A stretch of DNA of 64,000 nt from Coriobacterium glomerans PW2 (GTDB lineage: Bacteria; Actinomycetota; Coriobacteriia; Coriobacteriales; Coriobacteriaceae), in contig NC_015389.1 of the NCBI RefSeq assembly GCF_000195315.1, forward strand, positions 620,001-684,000. The letters run 5' to 3'. This document shows, piece by piece, positions 11,674-23,364 of the stretch. Below the pieces are notes generated by a model. That model was not told the DNA's origin, made no database searches, and worked only from the letters and a program-made list of their open reading frames with translations. The position numbers and the translations under genes are program-made. Numbering within the stretch: position 1 is the first letter of the stretch; every line of letters starts with the position of its first letter.

Positions 11674-11733
11674 AGAGCTGTGCAGACCGAACAACTTGAA
11701 GTAGGTGTGATCAATTCAGGAGAAGGAGTCATC

Positions 11734-12516
11734 TTGGCACGAGAAGATAACAAGACCGCCGTCGTCACTGGAAGCACTCGCGGCATCGGCTGCGCGATCG
11801 CCAGACAGCTTTCTGACGATGGCTTCGCTGTCGTTATAGTCGGGACTCACGACGAGGGCTACTACAAAGGAGAGATGGAGTGGGCTGAAGAGCCGCAACG
11901 AGACGTGTTCTTCGTTCGAGCCGATGTGTCCATCCCACGGGACAGATCTCATTTGTTGCAAGAGACACTCAAGCGGTTCGGCCGAATAGATTGCCTGGTG
12001 AACAATGCGGGCGTGGCCCCGAAATATCGAGCGGATATCTTAGACGTGAGCGAACAGAGCTGGGACAGGGTCCTCGATATCAATCTCAAGGGCAATATGT
12101 TCACCACCCAAGAGTTTGCCATCGAGATGATTCAAGAGCGTAAAGCAGGTATCATCGAGCGGGGTGTCATCGTGAACATCTCATCGTGTTCGGCGGTTGT
12201 TTCGTCTATATCACGCGGTGAGTACTGCGTCTCCAAAGCGGGAATCGCAATGCTCACGAAGCTGTACGCTGACCGTCTGGCTCCAGAGGGCATCAATGTA
12301 TATGAGATTCGCCCGGGTGTTATCAAGACCGATATGACCGCTGCCGTCCAAGACAAGTACGACAAACTCATACATGACGGCGTCTTTCCAATCTCAAGAT
12401 GGGGCGTGCCTGAGGACGTCGCGCTCGCCGTCTCCTCCTTCGCACGCGGTGCATTTCCGTATACGACTGGGAGCTATTTGGATGTCGACGGCGGCTTTCA
12501 TATTCAACGCCTTTAG
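11734..12516 (+). CDS. Short-chain dehydrogenase/reductase
   Basis: About 260 residues. The start is taken as TTG 11734 because AGGAGAAGGAG lies directly upstream; a longer frame begins at 11680 without such a site. The NAD(P)-binding TGSTRGIG is at residues 12-19, followed by NNAG, a catalytic Ser in VNISS, and Tyr-x3-Lys in EYCVSK. The C-terminal YLDVDGGF is typical of classical SDRs. It would interconvert an alcohol and a ketone. Between an OYE and a C=C-reducing flavoprotein it resembles the oxidise/reduce logic of bile-acid or steroid pathways, but the substrate is unknown. Confidence 0.88.
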   Translation: MAREDNKTAVVTGSTRGIGCAIARQLSDDGFAVVIVGTHDEGYYKGEMEWAEEPQRDVFFVRADVSIPRDRSHLLQETLKRFGRIDCLVNNAGVAPKYRADILDVSEQSWDRVLDINLKGNMFTTQEFAIEMIQERKAGIIERGVIVNISSCSAVVSSISRGEYCVSKAGIAMLTKLYADRLAPEGINVYEIRPGVIKTDMTAAVQDKYDKLIHDGVFPISRWGVPEDVALAVSSFARGAFPYTTGSYLDVDGGFHIQRL

Positions 12517-12525
12517 GAGCAGATT

Positions 12526-14523
12526 GTGCTAGATGAGAACCTGAGAGTTTCGGTTATCACAGGAGTCGGACAAAAGATTTCAGCTAAAGTTGAAATCTGC
12601 CACCGTGCAGTTGCAGTGGTGGGATCTGGGGCCGCAGCATTGAACGCTGCGGATTGGTTATGCGATCTGGGGCAGCGAAATTGCGTGCTAGTGACCGAGG
12701 GTATGGACATGGGCACTTCTCGCAACGCTGGATCGGACAAGCAGACATATTATAAGCTTTCTATCGGGCCTGGAAACCCCGATTCAACAGCGGATATGGC
12801 GCGCGCGCTCTTCGAGGGCGGGGGAGTAGACGGAAGGGTCGCGCTTGCGGAGGCGGCTAATTCAGTCAGGTGCTTCATGAAGCTCGTGAACCTAGGGGTC
12901 GACTTTCCGACTGACGCCTACGGCCAATTCATAGGTTATAAGACCGACCATGATCCCTGTCAACGCGGCACAAGCGCTGGCCCGCTGACGTCGAGATACA
13001 TGACTGAGGCTCTAGAACGTTCAGTCAGGATGAAGAACATCGAGATCCGCGACAAGCTTATGGCGTTCCACATTCTCACCTCATCTGATGGTATCCGCGG
13101 AGTGATCTGTCTCGATCTGCTTTCAGCAGCTGAAGGACGATTGAAGCTGGTGATCTTCGTCTGCTCGAACTTGATCTGGTGCACGGGAAGTCCGGCGAGC
13201 ATATACGAAGTCGTGGCATATCCCGAAAGTCAGACTGGTATGAGCGGTGCAGCACTTCAGGCAGGAGCTGAGGCGGCGAATCTCCAAGATTGGCAATATG
13301 GACTTGCATCTGTTGGTTTTCGCTGGAATATTTCAGGCACCTATCAGCAGGCTCTACCACGCTATGTCGCGATAGATTCGCAGGGAAACGAACGAGAGTT
13401 TCTCTCGGATTACGGTTTAACTCCGATCGAGGCTGTGGACATGACCTTCTACAAGGGCTATCAATGGCCGTTCGACGTCGGGAAATGCGATGGGTCGTCG
13501 AGGATCGATCTAGCGGTCTATGAGGAGACGATGGTCAAGGGAAACCGCGTCTTTCTGGATTTTCGCAGAAATCCTCTTGGCATTAAGAACGGTTTCAGCG
13601 AGCTTTCAGGTGAGGCTTTTGAATACCTGAAGAGATCCGGTGTGCTGTTCGGCAATCCTTTCAATCGTTTGACGAAGATGAATCCGCTTGCTGTCAAGTT
13701 GTTTTGGGATCACGGAATCGATCTTGAACATGAGATGGTTGAAATCGCGATGTGTGCGCAGCATTGCAACGGTGGGATTCGAGTGGATGACAACTGGCAG
13801 TCAAGCATACGGGGGCTCTATGTCGCCGGAGAGGCTGCAGGCACATTTGGCGCTTACCGCCCAGGGGGGAGCGCACTCAACTCGACGCAAGTCGGCTCCA
13901 TGAGAGCGGCTCAGCACATCGTGATTACAAGCGAAGCACATTTCGGGTCTTTCACTGTTGAGAACTCCGCCATTCTAAAAGAGGCTGAGAGTTGTTTAAG
14001 AAAGCTGGCATTGCATATAACTGGCTCCGATACGTGCCGTCCCATCGTCAGTGAATTGCAAAAGACGATGAGCACCTTTGCAGCCCAAGTTCGCGATATG
14101 GACGCGATCGAGCGTTTTCGCGAGAAGCTTTCAGGTATCAGAGTGGCGGTTGAGCGCGGAGAGTTGCTGGGGGTCCGATGTGTGGAAGATCTTCCACATC
14201 TGGTGAAGGCGCGCGATGCAATCATCTCTCAGGCAGCTGTCATCAGTGCCATCGACGCCTCTGCAAAAACGTTCGGTTCTAGAGGTTCGGCATTTGTCAA
14301 AAGATCTGGTGGGAATATCGAGCTGAATTCAATGGGCGCGCAAACGCGCGTCTCTTCAAATCTCAGGATTATCACAAAGAAAAGTATTCAAGATGACTTT
14401 GCAACTTGGACAGAACCGGTTAGCGAGATTCCAAATCCTGACTCTTGGTTTGAGACAGCTTGGGCAGAGCATCGAGAGAAGCGCGGGTCTTTGGCCTCAA
14501 TCGGCAAAGGAGTATCACTATGA
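12526..14523 (+). CDS. FAD-dependent oxidoreductase, fumarate reductase/succinate dehydrogenase flavoprotein family
   Basis: 665 residues starting with GTG after AGGAG. Near the N terminus VAVVGSGAAALNAADW is the Rossmann FAD-binding motif. Later segments SRNAGSDKQTYYK and GLYVAGEAAGTFGAYRPGG match the FAD_binding_2 family. About 150 C-terminal residues follow, as in fumarate-reductase or aspartate-oxidase proteins. No signal peptide or haem motifs are present, so it is cytoplasmic and probably takes electrons from a partner. Family members reduce activated C=C bonds or oxidise amines or alcohols. Its start lies 10 bases after the SDR stop and its stop overlaps the next gene. Confidence 0.85.
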   Translation: MLDENLRVSVITGVGQKISAKVEICHRAVAVVGSGAAALNAADWLCDLGQRNCVLVTEGMDMGTSRNAGSDKQTYYKLSIGPGNPDSTADMARALFEGGGVDGRVALAEAANSVRCFMKLVNLGVDFPTDAYGQFIGYKTDHDPCQRGTSAGPLTSRYMTEALERSVRMKNIEIRDKLMAFHILTSSDGIRGVICLDLLSAAEGRLKLVIFVCSNLIWCTGSPASIYEVVAYPESQTGMSGAALQAGAEAANLQDWQYGLASVGFRWNISGTYQQALPRYVAIDSQGNEREFLSDYGLTPIEAVDMTFYKGYQWPFDVGKCDGSSRIDLAVYEETMVKGNRVFLDFRRNPLGIKNGFSELSGEAFEYLKRSGVLFGNPFNRLTKMNPLAVKLFWDHGIDLEHEMVEIAMCAQHCNGGIRVDDNWQSSIRGLYVAGEAAGTFGAYRPGGSALNSTQVGSMRAAQHIVITSEAHFGSFTVENSAILKEAESCLRKLALHITGSDTCRPIVSELQKTMSTFAAQVRDMDAIERFREKLSGIRVAVERGELLGVRCVEDLPHLVKARDAIISQAAVISAIDASAKTFGSRGSAFVKRSGGNIELNSMGAQTRVSSNLRIITKKSIQDDFATWTEPVSEIPNPDSWFETAWAEHREKRGSLASIGKGVSL

Positions 14524-15975: not shown

Positions 15976-16683
15976 ATGTCTGTTGGAAATCGAGTTTTCA
16001 AAAAGATATGTAGACCAAAACCACATTTTCTTGCTGAATTCGCACAGATACCCTGTGCGAACACTGCGGATACGATGTCAAGGTCTTGTGCCGTCAACCC
16101 TCGGATCCGTCTTATGTCAAATCCAAGTATCTCAATCGTCGCAGGGCCCGCTCTTACAGTCAAAACGCGGGCGGGGGACAATCTTATGATTCACGCAGCT
16201 CTCGAAATGATTGAACCCGGGGATATTCTCGTTGTTGGCAACGAGGGTGATGCGTCTCGTGCGCTCATGGGTGAGATTATGTTTACCTATGCACGATATA
16301 TGGATGTTGGCGCCATAGTTCTCGACGGGCCGATACGGGATGTCGGGGCAGTACGGAAAATGGATTTTCCGATCTATGCGACGGGATCGACTCCGGGTGG
16401 GCCATATAAGGAAGGTCCGGGCGAAGTCAACGTGCCGATTTCGTGCGGTAACCTTGCAATAAACCCTGGTGATATCATGGTTTGTGATCCGGATGGCGTG
16501 ATCGCCATTCCTTTCGCAGATGCGAAAAATGTGCTTGCAAATGCCCGGGAGCTTTCTGCACTTGACCATAGCAAAGTAGAAGCAGCAGCAAAAGGTACCG
16601 CGAAGAGACAGTGGGTAGGCGAGACCCTCAACTCAAAGAATGTGGAAATAATTGACGCCCGATATGACGAGCAGCGTGATTAG
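15976..16683 (+). CDS. RraA-family protein, likely 4-hydroxy-4-methyl-2-oxoglutarate (HMG) aldolase type
   Basis: 235 residues, start supported by GGAGGG. The RraA/MenG fold is shown by GPALTVKTRAGDN (57-69), GDILVVGNEGD (82-92) and VGAIVLDGPIRD. The latter contains Arg121 and Asp122, which match the pyruvate- and metal-binding Arg-Asp pair of the HMG/CHA aldolases; many RraA proteins that only inhibit RNase E do not keep this context. The enzyme would split a 4-hydroxy-4-substituted 2-oxoglutarate into pyruvate plus an alpha-keto product. The neighbouring aminotransferase could make that 2-oxo acid from the corresponding glutamate derivative. Oxaloacetate decarboxylase activity, known for some relatives, is an alternative. 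Confidence 0.82.
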   Translation: MSVGNRVFKKICRPKPHFLAEFAQIPCANTADTMSRSCAVNPRIRLMSNPSISIVAGPALTVKTRAGDNLMIHAALEMIEPGDILVVGNEGDASRALMGEIMFTYARYMDVGAIVLDGPIRDVGAVRKMDFPIYATGSTPGGPYKEGPGEVNVPISCGNLAINPGDIMVCDPDGVIAIPFADAKNVLANARELSALDHSKVEAAAKGTAKRQWVGETLNSKNVEIIDARYDEQRD

Positions 16684-16685
16684 TC

Positions 16686-17945
16686 ATGCTAAAAGCCATA
16701 TTCAACAAGAAACGTTTGGCGATATATACGACCGCCACGCTGTTTCTTGGCATCATCTATGGAACGGTCGCTCCGAGTGTCGCCACATCGTCGAAGGTCC
16801 TTGGAGACATCTTCATGAATCTGATCACAATGATTGTCGTGCCGATGATCTTGTTCAGTATTGTTAGCGGAATTGCATCGATGAAAGATACCGAAAAGCT
16901 CGCAAAAGTCGGCGGTAGGGTTATCCTCATCTACATTATCGCTGTTTTTATTTGCTGCTTGATCGCCGCCGGTATCACATATGCGATCAATCCCGGGATC
17001 GGCCTTAATTTTACTCCATCGGAATCCTATGACGCTTCCTCAGTTGGCGAAGTGTCCATGTTGGGTTTTTTCACCGGTATCGTGCCTTCAAATATTGTAA
17101 GCGCTATGTCAAACGGAAATTTCATGCAAGTAATTTTCTTTTCAGTTATGTTTGGGCTTGCTCTTATTACTATCGGAAAGAATGGCGAGCATCTCGTTCG
17201 TATCATGGAACAAGGTGCGCAGACGACGTATAAAATGTTAGACATCATCATGTGGTATGCGCCTATTGGTGTGTTTTGTTTAATTGGCTGGACGACTGCT
17301 GTATATGGCGGAAAGCTATTTGGCGGTTTGCCTTTGTATATTCTTACGGACCTGACCTGTTGCGTGGTTGGATTTATTGTTCTTTTGCTTATTGTTCGTT
17401 TTTACACAGGGCTTCGCATCTCGAAAATTCTGAGTAATCTCCTCCCGGTGTTTGTTAACACTGTGTCGACGAATTCAAGCGCAGCAACGATCCCTATTAC
17501 AATGACCGTCGTTACCGATAAGTTCAAGGTCCCGAATTCACTTGCAAGTTTTTCCATTTCTCTTGGTCCAACAATCTGCAAAGCCGGAGCCGGACTCTAT
17601 AAAGTCGTCCTTGCGATTTTCGTCTCTCAAATGTATGGAATTCAGCTTTCTGTGACTCAAATTGCCATGGTGGTATGCGTTTCGACATTCATGTCAATCG
17701 CCACACCGGGAATTCCTGGCGGAGGCGTTGCAACTGGCACGGTGATTCTCGGTCTCGTTGGACTCCCCGTTGACATCATGGGTGCTATTGCAGGTCTATA
17801 CCGCTTAATCGACATGGGACACACGACTTTGAATGTTGCAGGAGGTGTTTTTGGGACGTTGATTGCGGCAAAACAGGAAGGGATTTGGTCTGCAAATATG
17901 ACACAAAAAGAATCGCAAACTATTTGTACTCAACAATCAGGCTAA
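16686..17945 (+). CDS. SLC1/DAACS-family transporter with replaced sodium-site residues
   Basis: 419 residues with eight predicted helices and two hairpins: HP1 with STNSSAATIPITM and HP2 with SIATPGIPGGGVATG, the dicarboxylate/amino acid:cation symporter fold. The TM7 signature NMDGT of sodium-coupled members is replaced by CKAGA at 298-302. In TM8 the segment IDMGHTTLNVAGG (375-387) keeps the Asp (376) and Asn (383) that bind the amino acid backbone in GltPh. It has His379 where GltPh has the Arg that binds the side-chain carboxylate, and Gly387 where GltPh has a sodium-ligand Asp. This suggests an amino-acid-like substrate moved without the usual sodium coupling (inference). The gene follows RraA by two bases. 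Confidence 0.85.
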   Translation: MLKAIFNKKRLAIYTTATLFLGIIYGTVAPSVATSSKVLGDIFMNLITMIVVPMILFSIVSGIASMKDTEKLAKVGGRVILIYIIAVFICCLIAAGITYAINPGIGLNFTPSESYDASSVGEVSMLGFFTGIVPSNIVSAMSNGNFMQVIFFSVMFGLALITIGKNGEHLVRIMEQGAQTTYKMLDIIMWYAPIGVFCLIGWTTAVYGGKLFGGLPLYILTDLTCCVVGFIVLLLIVRFYTGLRISKILSNLLPVFVNTVSTNSSAATIPITMTVVTDKFKVPNSLASFSISLGPTICKAGAGLYKVVLAIFVSQMYGIQLSVTQIAMVVCVSTFMSIATPGIPGGGVATGTVILGLVGLPVDIMGAIAGLYRLIDMGHTTLNVAGGVFGTLIAAKQEGIWSANMTQKESQTICTQQSG

Positions 17946-18003: not shown

Positions 18004-19191
18004 ATGTTAGCAAAGAGGATGAACGACATTGGTGGATCGCCGACGTCGGCTTTGATCGCTAAGGTTGCGGAGCTGAGAGGAGCTGGTGAAAACATCATTT
18101 CTCTCAATGTGGGCGAGCCAGATTTTGGGACACCCGCGGTTGCAAAAATTGCTGGAATAAAAGCGATTTGCGATAATTTTACCAAATACACCCCCAGTCC
18201 AGGTATTCTTGAGCTTCGTAGGGAGATCTCAAAGAAGCTTGAACGCGATAACAAAGTCATATACGGCATGGAAGAAATTTGCGCTACAGTTGGTGCAAAG
18301 CAAGCGATCTATAACTCACTCATGGCCCTTGTTGACGAGGGAGACGAGGTCCTGATACCAATTCCTTGTTGGGTGAGTTACACGGATATGGTGAGGCTTG
18401 CCGGTGGAACCCCGGTTTTTGTATCTGTTTGCGAAGATTACGCGCTTGATCTCGATGCGATAGAGGCTGCTATCACACGAAATACAAAAGCCATAATTAT
18501 TTGTACGCCGAACAATCCGAGCGGTGCTGTGTACTCGCGCGACAGCCTAGAGCGCTTGGCTGATCTGGCATGCAAGCATGATTTCTATGTAATTGCAGAC
18601 GAGATATACGAGAAGCTCATTTACGACAAAGACTGTGAACATGTAAGTATTGCATCGCTTGGTGATAGTATTCGTGATCGAACAGTTACCGTGAATGGTA
18701 TGTCGAAGGCTTTTGCGATGACGGGTTGGCGCATAGGCTATGCTGCTTCAACTCGGACGATTATCAAGGCGATGAAGGCAATACAGAGCCAAACGACTTC
18801 TGCTACAAATGCCATAGCTCAGAAAGCCGCGATAGATGCGCTCAGATACGGTGACCAAGATGTTCACCTCATGGTATGCGAATTCAAGCGACGTCGGGAC
18901 TACGTGGTGAAGCGTATCGAAGAGCTTGAAGGCTTTACCTGCCGTTTGCCGCAGGGTGCTTTTTACGCACTTGTTGACGTTTCAAATGTAATCGGAAAAC
19001 AAACGGCCAATAAGACGATTCAGAATTCATTTGATCTCGCTTCCTATCTTCTTGATGAAGCCAAGGTCGCTTTGGTGCCAGGAGAAAGTTTCAATATCAA
19101 AGAAAAGGTTCGCATCTCCTACTCAAATTCCATCGAGAACATCGACAAGGCGTTTAATCGAATCGAGATCGCAATTTCAAAACTGAGATAG
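18004..19191 (+). CDS. PLP-dependent aminotransferase class I (AspC-like)
   Basis: 395 residues of fold type I. NNPSG is at 170-174, the PLP-contacting DEIY at 199-202, and the Schiff-base Lys235 in SKAFAMTGWR. The substrate carboxylate-binding Arg near the C terminus (KVRISYS) is present. GAGAGGAAAG precedes the ATG. It would move an amino group from an imported amino acid to 2-oxoglutarate or pyruvate, giving a 2-oxo acid. Its neighbours (transporter and RraA-type aldolase) suggest the product is a 4-hydroxy-2-oxo acid. Confidence 0.9.
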   Translation: MLAKRMNDIGGSPTSALIAKVAELRGAGENIISLNVGEPDFGTPAVAKIAGIKAICDNFTKYTPSPGILELRREISKKLERDNKVIYGMEEICATVGAKQAIYNSLMALVDEGDEVLIPIPCWVSYTDMVRLAGGTPVFVSVCEDYALDLDAIEAAITRNTKAIIICTPNNPSGAVYSRDSLERLADLACKHDFYVIADEIYEKLIYDKDCEHVSIASLGDSIRDRTVTVNGMSKAFAMTGWRIGYAASTRTIIKAMKAIQSQTTSATNAIAQKAAIDALRYGDQDVHLMVCEFKRRRDYVVKRIEELEGFTCRLPQGAFYALVDVSNVIGKQTANKTIQNSFDLASYLLDEAKVALVPGESFNIKEKVRISYSNSIENIDKAFNRIEIAISKLR

Positions 19192-19326: not shown

Positions 19327-20196
19327 ATGAGTGCTTCAGTTCTTGAAGACATGAAAGAAAAAATAAAGGCCCTGTCGCTCACTAAGACCGAATCAGCTAT
19401 TGCAGACTATGTACTGGACAATTTCGACTCGCTCGCTTTTCTCACGGTTTCAGATCTTGCTGCACATACAAATACTAGCGATGCCTCGATCATCAGATTT
19501 ATTCGACGGTTGGGCTTTGCAGGCTATATGGAGTACCGTCAGAAGTTACAGGATGATTTCATGGATCGTCAAGCGCAGGGCCTTATGCCAAGTCAAAAAC
19601 TACACAGCGAGAAACAGGGTTTAGATTCAGATGATCTTGCAGATGCTCTCGTGCAAAAAACGACTGAGAACCTATTCAAAACTTTTAATGATACGGCACT
19701 GGATCAGGTGGCTTTTACTGATGTCTGTTCTTTGCTCGCGAATTCAACACGCATTTTTGTGGCGGGATTTCGCGGCTCGCATTGTTGTTCTATGTATGCG
19801 GCGCATAGATTGGGCATGATGCGCGAACGGGTAACCCTGCTGAGCAATGCTGGTGCGACCGCTATCGAGCAGCTTGTCGATTGCAAACGTGGGGATCTGC
19901 TATTAATCTTCAGCTTCGCGAGATATTCTCGGATCTGTCGAGTTCTGCTTGAAATTGCAAGCGGTGCAGGCGTGCATACTGTTCTTGTAACTGATAAGCT
20001 CAGCTGTCCATTTGCGAACTTCGCCAAAAATATATTTACAGCAGAGGTTGTTAGCTTGGGATTCGCGAACTCCTATATCGCTCCATTATGTCTGGCAGAA
20101 GCATTGCTGCTCGGGGCTGAACGTGAGATAGGAGCTCATGCGATGCCAAGACTAGAGGTGATTGATGGGTATTTAGAAGATGCTGATTTATATTGA
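19327..20196 (+). CDS. MurR/RpiR-family transcriptional regulator
   Basis: About 289 residues from the ATG at 19327, which has GGGAG upstream; an in-frame extension to 19210 is not needed. The N-terminal helix-turn-helix (LTVSDLAAHTNTSDASIIRFIRRLG) is followed by an SIS domain (about 120-280). The usual phosphosugar loop SxSGxT is replaced by FSFARYSR, a variation seen in RpiR members that sense non-sugar ligands. It is last in the RraA-transporter-aminotransferase set and probably senses the amino or oxo acid. Confidence 0.88.
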   Translation: MSASVLEDMKEKIKALSLTKTESAIADYVLDNFDSLAFLTVSDLAAHTNTSDASIIRFIRRLGFAGYMEYRQKLQDDFMDRQAQGLMPSQKLHSEKQGLDSDDLADALVQKTTENLFKTFNDTALDQVAFTDVCSLLANSTRIFVAGFRGSHCCSMYAAHRLGMMRERVTLLSNAGATAIEQLVDCKRGDLLLIFSFARYSRICRVLLEIASGAGVHTVLVTDKLSCPFANFAKNIFTAEVVSLGFANSYIAPLCLAEALLLGAEREIGAHAMPRLEVIDGYLEDADLY

Positions 20197-20760
20197 CCTT
20201 GTTACTGAATCAAGCAGTTAAACGGCGTGGTTTTTGAATCGGTATCGATAACCGTGAAAGAGCACAGATGTATGGATCCCTTCTGAATGTTTAAGGAGAG
20301 CTGACGAGATCTCCAAGTTTCGATGATTCTGCAGGTATTCGAATCGATTTTTAATCATATTAAGGAAACCGACAATATGGTCATACCTATTCGCCTGCTT
20401 GGGAATGAGAGGATGAACGAGAAAGGACTCGTACCAGAGTGTTGTTTTGCTGAGAGCTCGGTCCAGAGACATGATTAATTAAAATAACTCTTGGATATGT
20501 CTGCGCTGGTTTTCAACTGGTCCGAAAAGGAATTACGCCCGTGGTGCCAAAATGGTTTCTGGTCCTGAATCGGGTTTACCCACTGACTTGCATCCGAAAA
20601 CCGCTTGCCAAATAGAATCTACCGCCCGTAGGAATGCTGATGGGTTTGAGTTTCCATGATAATGACATTGCGTAAAAATGAATAACAGGCGCCCAATATG
20701 ATCGCTGCGATGTCGAATAACTTCTGGACTTCGTACAACAAAACGAGAGAAGGGGTATTC
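20197..20760. other. Intergenic region before the truncated MFS gene
   Basis: About 560 bases. A reverse frame of 84 residues (20218-20472) has no ribosome site and no recognisable family. The final 20 bases carry AGAGAAGGGG, the ribosome site of the MFS remnant. I see nothing else that can be supported. Confidence 0.4.
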
Positions 20761-21063
20761 ATGGCAGAGCTCCCCGACGTCTATGTGGGCAAAAAGCTGC
20801 GACGTCCGAATCCTTGGTGGGTTGGAGTCGTATCCGGAATGGCATCCTATATCGACTCATGTGCCATTATCACATCAGGTACCGCAGTAACAATCTATCA
20901 GCAGGTCTTTGGCTTCACGAACGAGCAGTTCGGTCTGCTGTCGGCCTCCCTTACCTTCGCCATCGTCATCGGCGCTCTTCTTGGAGGCCGTCTGAGCGAT
21001 CAGTTTGGCCGGAAACGCGTGTTCGCGATAGCAGATGTCCGGCAGAGATTCAGAGCGTGGTAA
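20761..21063 (+). pseudogene. Truncated MFS sugar transporter (N-terminal remnant)
   Basis: GAGAAGGGG precedes an ATG encoding about 90 residues of a typical MFS sugar symporter: a cytoplasmic start, helix 1 (WWVGVVSGMASYIDSC), helix 2 and the motif A loop GGRLSDQFGRKRV. The frame then ends within about a dozen residues. The remaining ten or so helices are missing, and the next gene starts 18 bases later. A deletion has therefore joined the 5' end of a transporter gene to the upstream edge of the rhamnosidase gene. The lost transporter may have imported rhamnose or rhamnosides, which would leave this locus without a visible intact transporter. Confidence 0.85.
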
Positions 21064-21081
21064 CAGAAAGAGGGAGCAGAC

Positions 21082-23364
21082 ATGACGGATCACCACATGA
21101 ACGCAAAATACGAAGATGAAGGATTTCCGATTGAAGCTGCAATGATCGGTGCCGATGCCGATGACAGGCAAGCAGTCGTTTTGAGCACGGTTCAAAAGCT
21201 TACCCAAGCTGTCGATCGAGTTGCATCCGCGACTTTTCGCGCGACAGCGCACGGCCTGTACGAAGCAAGGATCAACGGAGAACCCGTCGACGATTCGGTG
21301 ATGAACCCGGGCTGGACATCGTTTGAGTGGCGTTTACGGGTGCAATCGTTTGATGTAACCAAGATAGTGAAACTTTGCACAGGTGAGATCTCGATCGAGG
21401 TGTTGCTCGGCAATGGCTGGTACCGAGGTAAAATTGGATTCAATGGTCAACGTTGTGATTACGGCTCAGCAATAGGATTTCTCGGTGCACTTGAGGTCTC
21501 GTATCAAGACGGGTCAATTCAGCAGATTCTCACGTCCACCGAGTGGTGTGCGAGGTCCTCCGCAATCACCTTCAACACCCTCTATGATGGTGAGACCATC
21601 GATGCTCGGCTGTGGGATACACCATCATCGCTGGATGTCCACAGGATCGAATTTGATCGGAACACGCTGGTGCCGCAGATCGGCCCGGCTATAACGCGAC
21701 ATGAGGTTGTCCATCCTGTGCGGATCTGGACTTCGCCTGCGGGCAAGACGCTGGTCGATTTCGGTCAGAATCTCGTAGGCTGGCTGCGCTTCAGTCTGAC
21801 AGGACCTGCGGGAACCGAGATCGTCATCCGGCATGCCGAGGTCATCGAAGATGGTGAACTCGGCACGCGACCGCTGCGCCGGGCAAAGGCGACCGATCGC
21901 TTCATCCTCTCGGGTGGGCGTGATTTCTTTGAGCCAACGCTCACGTTTCACGGTTTCCGCTACGCCGAGGTATCCGGATGGCCCGGCGAGCTGAGGCTCG
22001 ACGATCTCGAGGCGGTCGTGGTGCATTCCGATATTTCGCGCACCGGCTGGTTCGAGTGCTCCGATCCCATGGTCAATCAGCTCGTGAGCAACTCTGTCTG
22101 GAGCCAGAAAGGTAATTTTCTCGATATCCCGACCGACTGTCCCCAGCGTGATGAACGGGAGGGCTGGACCGGAGACATCGCCGCATTCAGCCCGACTGCT
22201 GCATTCCAGTTCGACGTCTCTTCTTTTCTCAACAAATGGCTGATGGATCTCGCGGAGGAGACGAGGCACAGCGACGGAGTCCGAGTTCCCATAGTCGTTC
22301 CCGATATCATAAAAATGAATCCGCCCGAAGAATTCAGAACGCTCCTCAGCGATCCAACCGCTATCTGGGGTGACGCCTCTATCTGGGTGCCCGAGGCCCT
22401 CTGGAACGCTTATGGAGATATCGATGCGCTGCAAGCGAGCTATCCGTCGATGGTCTTGCATCTCGAATCGATCGAGCGCAAGCTCAGCTCCGATGGTCTG
22501 TGGAACACCGGCTTCCAGTTCGGCGACTGGCTCGATCCCACAGCACCACCGGATGACCCGGCCGCCGCGAAGGCGGATAGGTACTTGGTCGCGCAGGCAT
22601 GTCTGTATCGCAGCGCCTCGTTCGCCGCAAAGGCGGCGCATCTCATCGACAACGAGCGGGATGCGGTCCGCTGGCGCGCGCTCGCCGATCGGACGCGCGC
22701 GGCTTTCAACAAGGCGTACGTGAGAGATGGCCTGCTGACATCGGATGCGACGACCTCCTATGCGCTTGCCATCCACTTCGGACTGCTCGACGAGAAGCAT
22801 ATCTCCGTAGCCGGAGAGCGGCTCGCTCAGCTGGTTCGGGAGGCGCGGTACAGAGTCAGCACCGGCTTCGCGGGGACGCCCTACATCACATGGGCGCTCA
22901 CCGATACCGGCCATGTGGACGACGCCTACCGGCTGCTGCTCGAGAGGAGCTGCCCGTCGTGGATGTATCCCATCACCATGGGAGCGACCACGATCTGGGA
23001 GCGCTGGGACTCGATGCTGCCGAACGGGAAGATCAATCCCGGTGAGATGACCTCGTTCAATCATTACGCGCTGGGATCGGTCTGCGACTGGATTTACCAG
23101 GTGGTCGGTGGCATCAGACCCGCTGCGCCCGGATACGCCTCGGTGCGCATCGAGCCCGTGCCCGGCGGTGGGATCACATGGGCGAAGACCGCATTCGATT
23201 CGGTGCACGGCAGGATCGAGGTCGAATGGCATATCAAAGAAGGTGATTTCTCTATGCTGCTCAACCTGCCCGAGGATGTCGACGCCAAGGTGGTGCTGCC
23301 CGACGCTCGCAGCTACGAGGTCGTCGGCGGATCGCATCGCTTCGGTTGCGCGCTTTTGCGCTGA
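21082..23364 (+). CDS. GH78 alpha-L-rhamnosidase
   Basis: 760 residues. The N-terminal beta domain contains GLYEARINGEPV and NPGWTSFEWRL. The catalytic (alpha/alpha)6 barrel carries CPQRDEREGWTGD with the probable general acid Glu358, and TTIWERWDS with the probable base Glu640. A C-terminal beta sandwich follows. No signal peptide is seen, so it acts in the cytoplasm on imported rhamnosides. The family usually has about 60-150 more residues at the N terminus, so this copy may be shortened by the same deletion that truncated the upstream MFS gene. GAGGGAGC precedes the ATG. The first 500 bases look less GC-rich than the rest. Confidence 0.88.
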   Translation: MTDHHMNAKYEDEGFPIEAAMIGADADDRQAVVLSTVQKLTQAVDRVASATFRATAHGLYEARINGEPVDDSVMNPGWTSFEWRLRVQSFDVTKIVKLCTGEISIEVLLGNGWYRGKIGFNGQRCDYGSAIGFLGALEVSYQDGSIQQILTSTEWCARSSAITFNTLYDGETIDARLWDTPSSLDVHRIEFDRNTLVPQIGPAITRHEVVHPVRIWTSPAGKTLVDFGQNLVGWLRFSLTGPAGTEIVIRHAEVIEDGELGTRPLRRAKATDRFILSGGRDFFEPTLTFHGFRYAEVSGWPGELRLDDLEAVVVHSDISRTGWFECSDPMVNQLVSNSVWSQKGNFLDIPTDCPQRDEREGWTGDIAAFSPTAAFQFDVSSFLNKWLMDLAEETRHSDGVRVPIVVPDIIKMNPPEEFRTLLSDPTAIWGDASIWVPEALWNAYGDIDALQASYPSMVLHLESIERKLSSDGLWNTGFQFGDWLDPTAPPDDPAAAKADRYLVAQACLYRSASFAAKAAHLIDNERDAVRWRALADRTRAAFNKAYVRDGLLTSDATTSYALAIHFGLLDEKHISVAGERLAQLVREARYRVSTGFAGTPYITWALTDTGHVDDAYRLLLERSCPSWMYPITMGATTIWERWDSMLPNGKINPGEMTSFNHYALGSVCDWIYQVVGGIRPAAPGYASVRIEPVPGGGITWAKTAFDSVHGRIEVEWHIKEGDFSMLLNLPEDVDAKVVLPDARSYEVVGGSHRFGCALLR

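Follow-up and report, generated by a model that had tools for sequence, protein, structure and literature searches.

How SLC1 transporters lost their coupling to sodium is a live question, and work on it so far has used a reconstructed ancestor with its sodium sites still in place. The 64,000-nucleotide stretch of the Coriobacterium glomerans PW2 genome analyzed here (the window) codes for a transporter that, together with its orthologue in Enorma burkinafasonensis, represents the opposite natural end point, with the sites fully rewritten and two lysines placed exactly at the two motifs that sodium moves. How would such a carrier operate? The protein is a rare gut-bacterial relative of the brain glutamate transporters and a variant within the SLC1 family. 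With it, nature supplies a single ORF on which to test whether sodium can be replaced by a fixed positive charge in an elevator carrier, and the enzymes conserved beside it are a way toward identifying the substrate. The CKAGA/Lys318/Gly405 set and the pair of TM7 lysines are new as far as the sampling goes, whereas the SLC1 family is already known and the uncoupled mode considered below is plausible, with published precedent.

A DAACS transporter outside the named subfamilies

The transporter gene belongs to a set of four genes reading in one direction:

15976-16683, + strand: RraA-like class II pyruvate aldolase/oxaloacetate decarboxylase (PF03737, 148.6 bits; NCBIfam PRK06201, 240 bits, cut-off 231)
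16686-17945, + strand: SLC1/DAACS transporter, 419 aa (P0001; Pfam PF00375, AlphaFold2 model, Foldseek)
18004-19191, + strand: class I/II aminotransferase, aspartate aminotransferase-like (PF00155, 252.9 bits)
19327-20196, + strand: RpiR/MurR-type regulator (PF01418 and PF01380), with a likely ATG start at 19327, the longest ORF beginning at TTG 19210

The transporter frame is open and intact, and its product scores 328.5 bits against Pfam SDF PF00375 (cut-off 27.9), which places it in the SLC1/DAACS family. The SLC1 fold proposed in an earlier sequence-only reading is supported by the AlphaFold2 model (pLDDT 81.8, pTM 0.81), which VIA-align matches best to GltPh 6wyk (Z 42.4; 394 residues at rmsd 2.5) and Foldseek to 9bh0, 9bgy, and 9bgz (E 6e-22 to 9bh0), all structures of AncInt, a reconstructed uncoupled aspartate transporter (PMC12668577). 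AncInt is also the best phmmer match among solved structures, at 245.7 bits compared with 145.4 bits for GltPh, although such a match says little about descent, since many descendants lie close to any ancestor that is inferred from them. The NCBIfam scores for GltP (189, cut-off 638) and DctA (182, cut-off 513) are far below the cut-offs, as is that for SstT, and thus no named subfamily suits the transporter.

We note that the same genome has a second DAACS ORF outside the window (G000:C1:577142-577978; locus L003, 1522-2361), of 279 aa and without the N-terminal scaffold part. It has HKDGS at 310-314, hence Lys311, and Ala at 397, and the ORF upstream of it resembles a glycyl-radical-enzyme activase by eye.

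The sodium sites are rewritten

The transporter core was aligned to GltPh and AncInt, with no gap inside TM7 or TM8, and a misalignment is rejected. The core positions are as follows:

16941-16946, + strand: codons of A86 and V87 in TM3, where the GltPh Na3 ligands T92/S93 are lost (alignment)
17472-17474, + strand: N263 in HP1 (GltPh R276), followed by S264, S265, and A266; with no Glu at 279, the H+ signature is missing (alignment)
17532-17534, + strand: P283 (GltPh 295), an uncoupling residue of AncInt (alignment; PMC12668577)
17577-17591, + strand: CKAGA (298-302) in place of NMDGT (310-314), with Lys299 at 17580-17582 (translation, alignment)
17601-17603, + strand: K306, the second TM7 lysine, at GltPh Q318, the EAAT Glu proton-carrier position (alignment; PMC10160106, PMC6769379)
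17628-17630, + strand: Q315 (GltPh 327), the other AncInt uncoupling residue (alignment)
17799-17846, + strand: TM8 motif Y372 xxx D376 xx H379 xxx N383 xxx G387 (GltPh D390, D394, R397, N401, and D405; alignment)

Numbered as in GltPh, the core residues are A92, V93, N276, A279, P295, C310, K311, A312, G313, A314, Y317, K318, Q327, Y390, D394, H397, N401, and G405. Relative to GltPh this corresponds to the replacements T92A, S93V, R276N, N310C, M311K, D312A, T314A, Q318K, D390Y, R397H, and D405G, with G313, D394, and N401 unchanged. All of the side-chain sodium ligands (T92, S93, N310, D312, and D405) are lost, their places being taken by A, V, C, A, and G, while the residues that provide Na2 ligands through the backbone (T308, S349, I350, and T352) are kept. 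The transporter shares with the sodium-coupled aspartate transporters GltPh and GltTk the fold, D394, N401, and the HP1/HP2 frame, but differs from them in every side-chain sodium ligand as well as in having His for R397 and Ala for T314.

The sequence-only reading had placed C298, K299, A300, G301, A302, D376, H379, N383, and G387, and the translation has each of them where it was claimed; the equivalences that it drew by motif (NMDGT to CKAGA, the sodium-ligand Asp to Gly387, and the Arg to His379, with Asp376 and Asn383 kept) also hold in the gap-free alignment. The loss of ligands that it described is real and goes further, since T92A and S93V at Na3 and Q318K, the second TM7 lysine, were missed, and D390Y and R276N are to be added. 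It had named as decisive against it an alignment restoring an intact Asp, and none is possible: D376 is the sole Asp or Glu within the TM7/TM8 core, and no other Asp can therefore fill Na1 or Na3.

The lysines coincide with the positions at which sodium acts on the fold. NMD and YE/DDR are the two motifs that rearrange upon sodium binding in EAAT3 (PMC10160106), and in the transporter these "dancing" motifs are changed from NMD to CKA and from Tyr-Gln/Asp-Asp-Arg to Tyr-Lys/Tyr-Asp-His. Position 318 is the proton-carrying Glu in EAATs and Gln in GltPh (PMC10160106; PMC6769379), and in AncInt, position 311 faces into the pocket that holds the substrate (PMC12668577).

Distribution and origin

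Rarity was assessed in an alignment of 216 DAACS rows from Coriobacteriales, other Actinomycetota, and a cross-phylum clade, with AncInt among the rows; searching the genome contigs with a single sequence gave no match, and a three-row alignment worked. Degraded sodium sites are common in this sample, with all four tested ligands lost in 10/216 rows and variants that include GQNGA with Ser405, GMPGA with Ala405, NLDGT with Asn405, and KMDGA with Gln405. The GQNGA and GMPGA types have lost N310, D312, or D405, as the transporter has, but in them Arg397 is retained and neither 311 nor 318 is Lys; the GQNGA type presumably resembles the TcyP cystine carriers.

The transporter falls in a clade of 76 rows marked by Tyr390, by His, Phe, or Tyr at 397, and by a PGIPGGG hairpin, which spans Bacillota, Pseudomonadota, Spirochaetota, Actinomycetota, and others (Salinicola, Pseudomonas, Bacillus, Psychrobacter, and Oscillospiraceae among them) and whose members often adjoin an amino-acid enzyme gene. 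These relatives differ from the transporter in keeping D405 (74/76) and, in nearly all cases, N310 (73/76), and in lacking a TM7 Lys at both 311 and 318. Of the 76, 19 carry His397, a count that, as for Phe, is biased by one of the two search patterns (DM[GA][HF]TT[LI]N), which selects His or Phe at that position. The combination of CKAGA, Lys318, and Gly405 occurs only in the window protein and its Enorma burkinafasonensis orthologue (2/216 rows), as does Lys318 itself, and these two sit on one long shared branch (1.32 changes per column in one tree and 0.89 in the other; support 100/100). As far as the sampling goes, this suggests that Cys-Lys-Ala, Lys318, and Gly405 are new on the Coriobacterium/Enorma branch, the His being shared with relatives. 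The description of the replacement set as unusual is thus borne out for K311/K318/G405 but not for sodium-ligand loss, which is frequent in the sample, nor for His397 and Tyr390, which are common to a wide clade. Likewise, of the co-variation anticipated between CKAGA and both the Gly and the His, only the former is seen: Gly405 goes with CKAGA, a pairing that reflects one event on a single branch, whereas CKAGA is present in 2 of the 19 His397 members.

The Enorma orthologue has the same CKAGA, K306, H379, and G387, and its identity to the window protein is 64-66% overall, 82% in TM7, and 84% in TM8. A sequencing error is rejected because the core motifs are identical in Enorma burkinafasonensis, and a pseudogene is rejected given the open frame and the retention of these motifs in another genus.

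A close clade member was found in 2/67 Coriobacteriaceae genomes and 3/398 genomes of the class, and a phylum-wide search of 396 genomes gave no further close relative. The G+C content is 46-47% in the transporter stretch, 58-62% beyond 21 kb, and ∼65% at the right end of the window, and this low-G+C stretch against a G+C-richer flank suggests that the gene was horizontally acquired. We also note that an MFS-type ORF is cut off in window positions 20698-21110 (ORF 20698-21063), with a rhamnosidase-like ORF following within 20 nt; the G+C content climbs there from 46% to 58-60%, and this may be a recombination junction ending a low-GC island.

A conserved set of enzyme partners

Amino-acid enzymes flank the transporter on both sides, with the RraA-like stop codon 2 nt ahead of the transporter ATG and the aminotransferase gene next downstream. 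Uncoupled transporters are reported often to adjoin amino-acid enzymes, unlike sodium- or proton-coupled ones (PMC12668577), and the neighborhood matches that pattern, with such an enzyme inside the three-gene distance applied to the ExtInt type. Enorma has the identical four genes in identical order (RraA-DAACS-AAT-RpiR). The RraA-like, aminotransferase, and transporter genes also occur together in two Salinicola genomes and one Pseudomonas genome (transporter identity 37-38%), there with a LysR gene and a GltS glutamate symporter gene, called from TIGR00210 in Salinicola socius (335 bits, cut-off 311) and by homology in the others. The three genes are present in Oceanobacillus, where the RraA-like one is divergent, and the aminotransferase is present in Salinicoccus; elsewhere in the clade the partner is a class V PLP enzyme or a prephenate dehydratase-dehydrogenase fusion. 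A scan for promoters and terminators found fewer promoter-like sites than in shuffles. Upstream of the module and in the same direction, window positions 11680-14523 code for a short-chain dehydrogenase and a 665-aa fumarate-reductase/aspartate-oxidase-like flavoprotein, a pair not found beside the Enorma module.

The best PDB match of the RraA-like protein is 3noj, an HMG/CHA aldolase, and the active-site Arg123-Asp is conserved in the alignment, but the protein scores below the NCBIfam CHA aldolase equivalog cut-offs (143.5 against 179 and 130.4 against 304.5) and passes only the uncharacterised PRK06201 subfamily. For the aminotransferase, the NCBIfam aspartate aminotransferase models score best, yet below their own cut-offs. 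HMG/CHA aldolases release pyruvate by cleaving 4-hydroxy-2-oxo acids and also act as oxaloacetate decarboxylases, the latter activity being general among class II pyruvate aldolases (PMC5065237), so that the two enzymes together would lead from an amino acid to pyruvate. The GltS gene beside the relatives' gene set favors an acidic substrate, and aspartate or a 4-substituted glutamate lead our guesses; no helpful paper on the catabolism of hydroxy-glutamate came up in a literature search.

Proposed sodium-free transport and its alternatives

The explanation that we favor, at about even confidence, is that the transporter is an SLC1-fold elevator carrier of an alpha-amino acid that would be sodium-free and run uncoupled, by facilitated diffusion or exchange. 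All of the side-chain sodium ligands (92, 93, 310, 312, and 405) are gone and the backbone-holding Asp394/Asn401 pair stays. With neither sodium ligands nor the proton signature (E279, L311, and N405), the transporter most likely works by facilitated transport or exchange, and degraded sodium ligands without a full proton signature are what characterizes the ExtInt type. AncInt exchanges aspartate without dependence on sodium or pH, by experiment, and reversion of P295 and Q327 restores sodium coupling (PMC12668577). Both residues are present here as P283 and Q315; they are supportive and not diagnostic, since they occur together in 9/216 rows, the window protein and AncInt included, and Q327 alone is common in the sample. 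The two proteins, at 34-36% identity, share the fold, P295, Q327, A279, D394/N401, Y317, and the lack of S279E, but AncInt keeps NMDGT, T92/T93, D390, R397, and D405 where the transporter has CKAGA, A/V, Y, H, and G, as well as K318. The trees place AncInt close to the junction, outside the transporter's clade. With binding sites intact in the one and rewritten in the other, function could differ.

In such an uncoupled carrier, Lys299 and Lys306 may form permanent contacts that fix the pocket in the high-affinity shape normally induced by sodium, and Lys299 may assume part of the role of Arg397 toward an acidic or polar side chain. Lys311 is found in five rows from four lineages, all five without Arg397, which is a hint at most, as the rows are not independent (Fisher p ∼0.06). 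Given this and the pocket-facing position of 311, a substrate-holding role is at least as likely as the built-in cation of the sequence-only reading, and Lys299 could serve as both, the roles not being exclusive. Two enzymes would sustain inward flow: the aminotransferase, by converting the imported amino acid to a 2-oxo acid, and the RraA-like one, by cleaving or decarboxylating this to pyruvate. The fullest version, in which two fixed TM7 lysines would replace three sodium ions and Arg397 in an exchanger serving a two-enzyme aspartate-to-alanine (or hydroxy-glutamate-to-pyruvate) module, is improbable; if true, it would be a new ion-free design within the glutamate transporter family.

Proton coupling, which the sequence-only reading proposed alongside exchange and facilitated transport, is possible but unlikely, with His379 or a titratable Lys299 or Lys306 as the proton carrier instead of Glu279 or the EAAT Glu site. 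Many DAACS that do not use sodium are proton coupled, such as GltP and DctA (PMC12668577), and the transporter shares with GltP, GltTBc, and DctA a small hydrophobic residue for T92 and a likely sodium independence, as well as having a titratable His and two Lys in its core. However, the signature of the proton-coupled type (ExtH) combines a hydrophobic residue for [T/S]92 with M311L, D405N, and S279E; T92A conforms to the first of these ([T/S]92[A/L/I/V/M]), whereas K311, G405, and A279 stand where Leu, Asn, and Glu are required, and position 318 is Lys. The transporter's clade is apart from the rows with the proton signature in the tree, and His397 is also seen where relatives have N310 and D405 retained, so that this His on its own is no marker of sodium-site loss.

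It is quite improbable that the transporter gains proton motive force as a precursor/product exchanger, with an acidic amino acid (aspartate, for example) moving in and alanine moving out. Exchange is the measured mode of AncInt (PMC12668577), and aspartate to alanine and CO2 is exactly the net reaction of the gene pair if both enzymes have their family activities (an aminotransferase with pyruvate as acceptor and an RraA-like oxaloacetate decarboxylase), but these specificities are predicted only from families, and R397H speaks against a plain aspartate site. We consider it very improbable that a weak sodium dependence persists through backbone carbonyls, mainly at Na2, whose backbone ligands are kept: Na1 and Na3 are stripped of all side-chain ligands, and the Lys in place of M311 at Na2 would repel sodium. 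That the long branch reflects a decayed or non-transporting relic is hardly credible for an open frame with an orthologue of identical core motifs in another genus, a conserved four-gene set, and a TM7/TM8 core more constrained than the rest (82-84% against 66%), which argues against decay.

Related DAACS proteins

Several other DAACS groups were seen alongside. Coriobacterial genomes have two adjacent DAACS genes from one subfamily, with NSNGA, NSNGV, or NSNGS, Arg397, and Gly or Ala at 394 (L171, L172, L180, L181, L221, L224, and L226), a tandem pair without the amino-group Asp. Proteins with NMNGA, NMDGA, or NMDGF and His397 mostly adjoin, in both gene orders, a class V PLP enzyme that is TIGR01976-like but below the cut-off (L063, L077, L079, L081-L083, L085, L089, L098-L101, L107, and L108). 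A subgroup of 56 rows with NMCGG and Phe397 (L034-L105, mainly Oscillospiraceae, Lachnospiraceae, and Mogibacterium) has a prephenate dehydratase-prephenate dehydrogenase fusion after the gene in ∼20 loci, which hints at an aromatic substrate or product.
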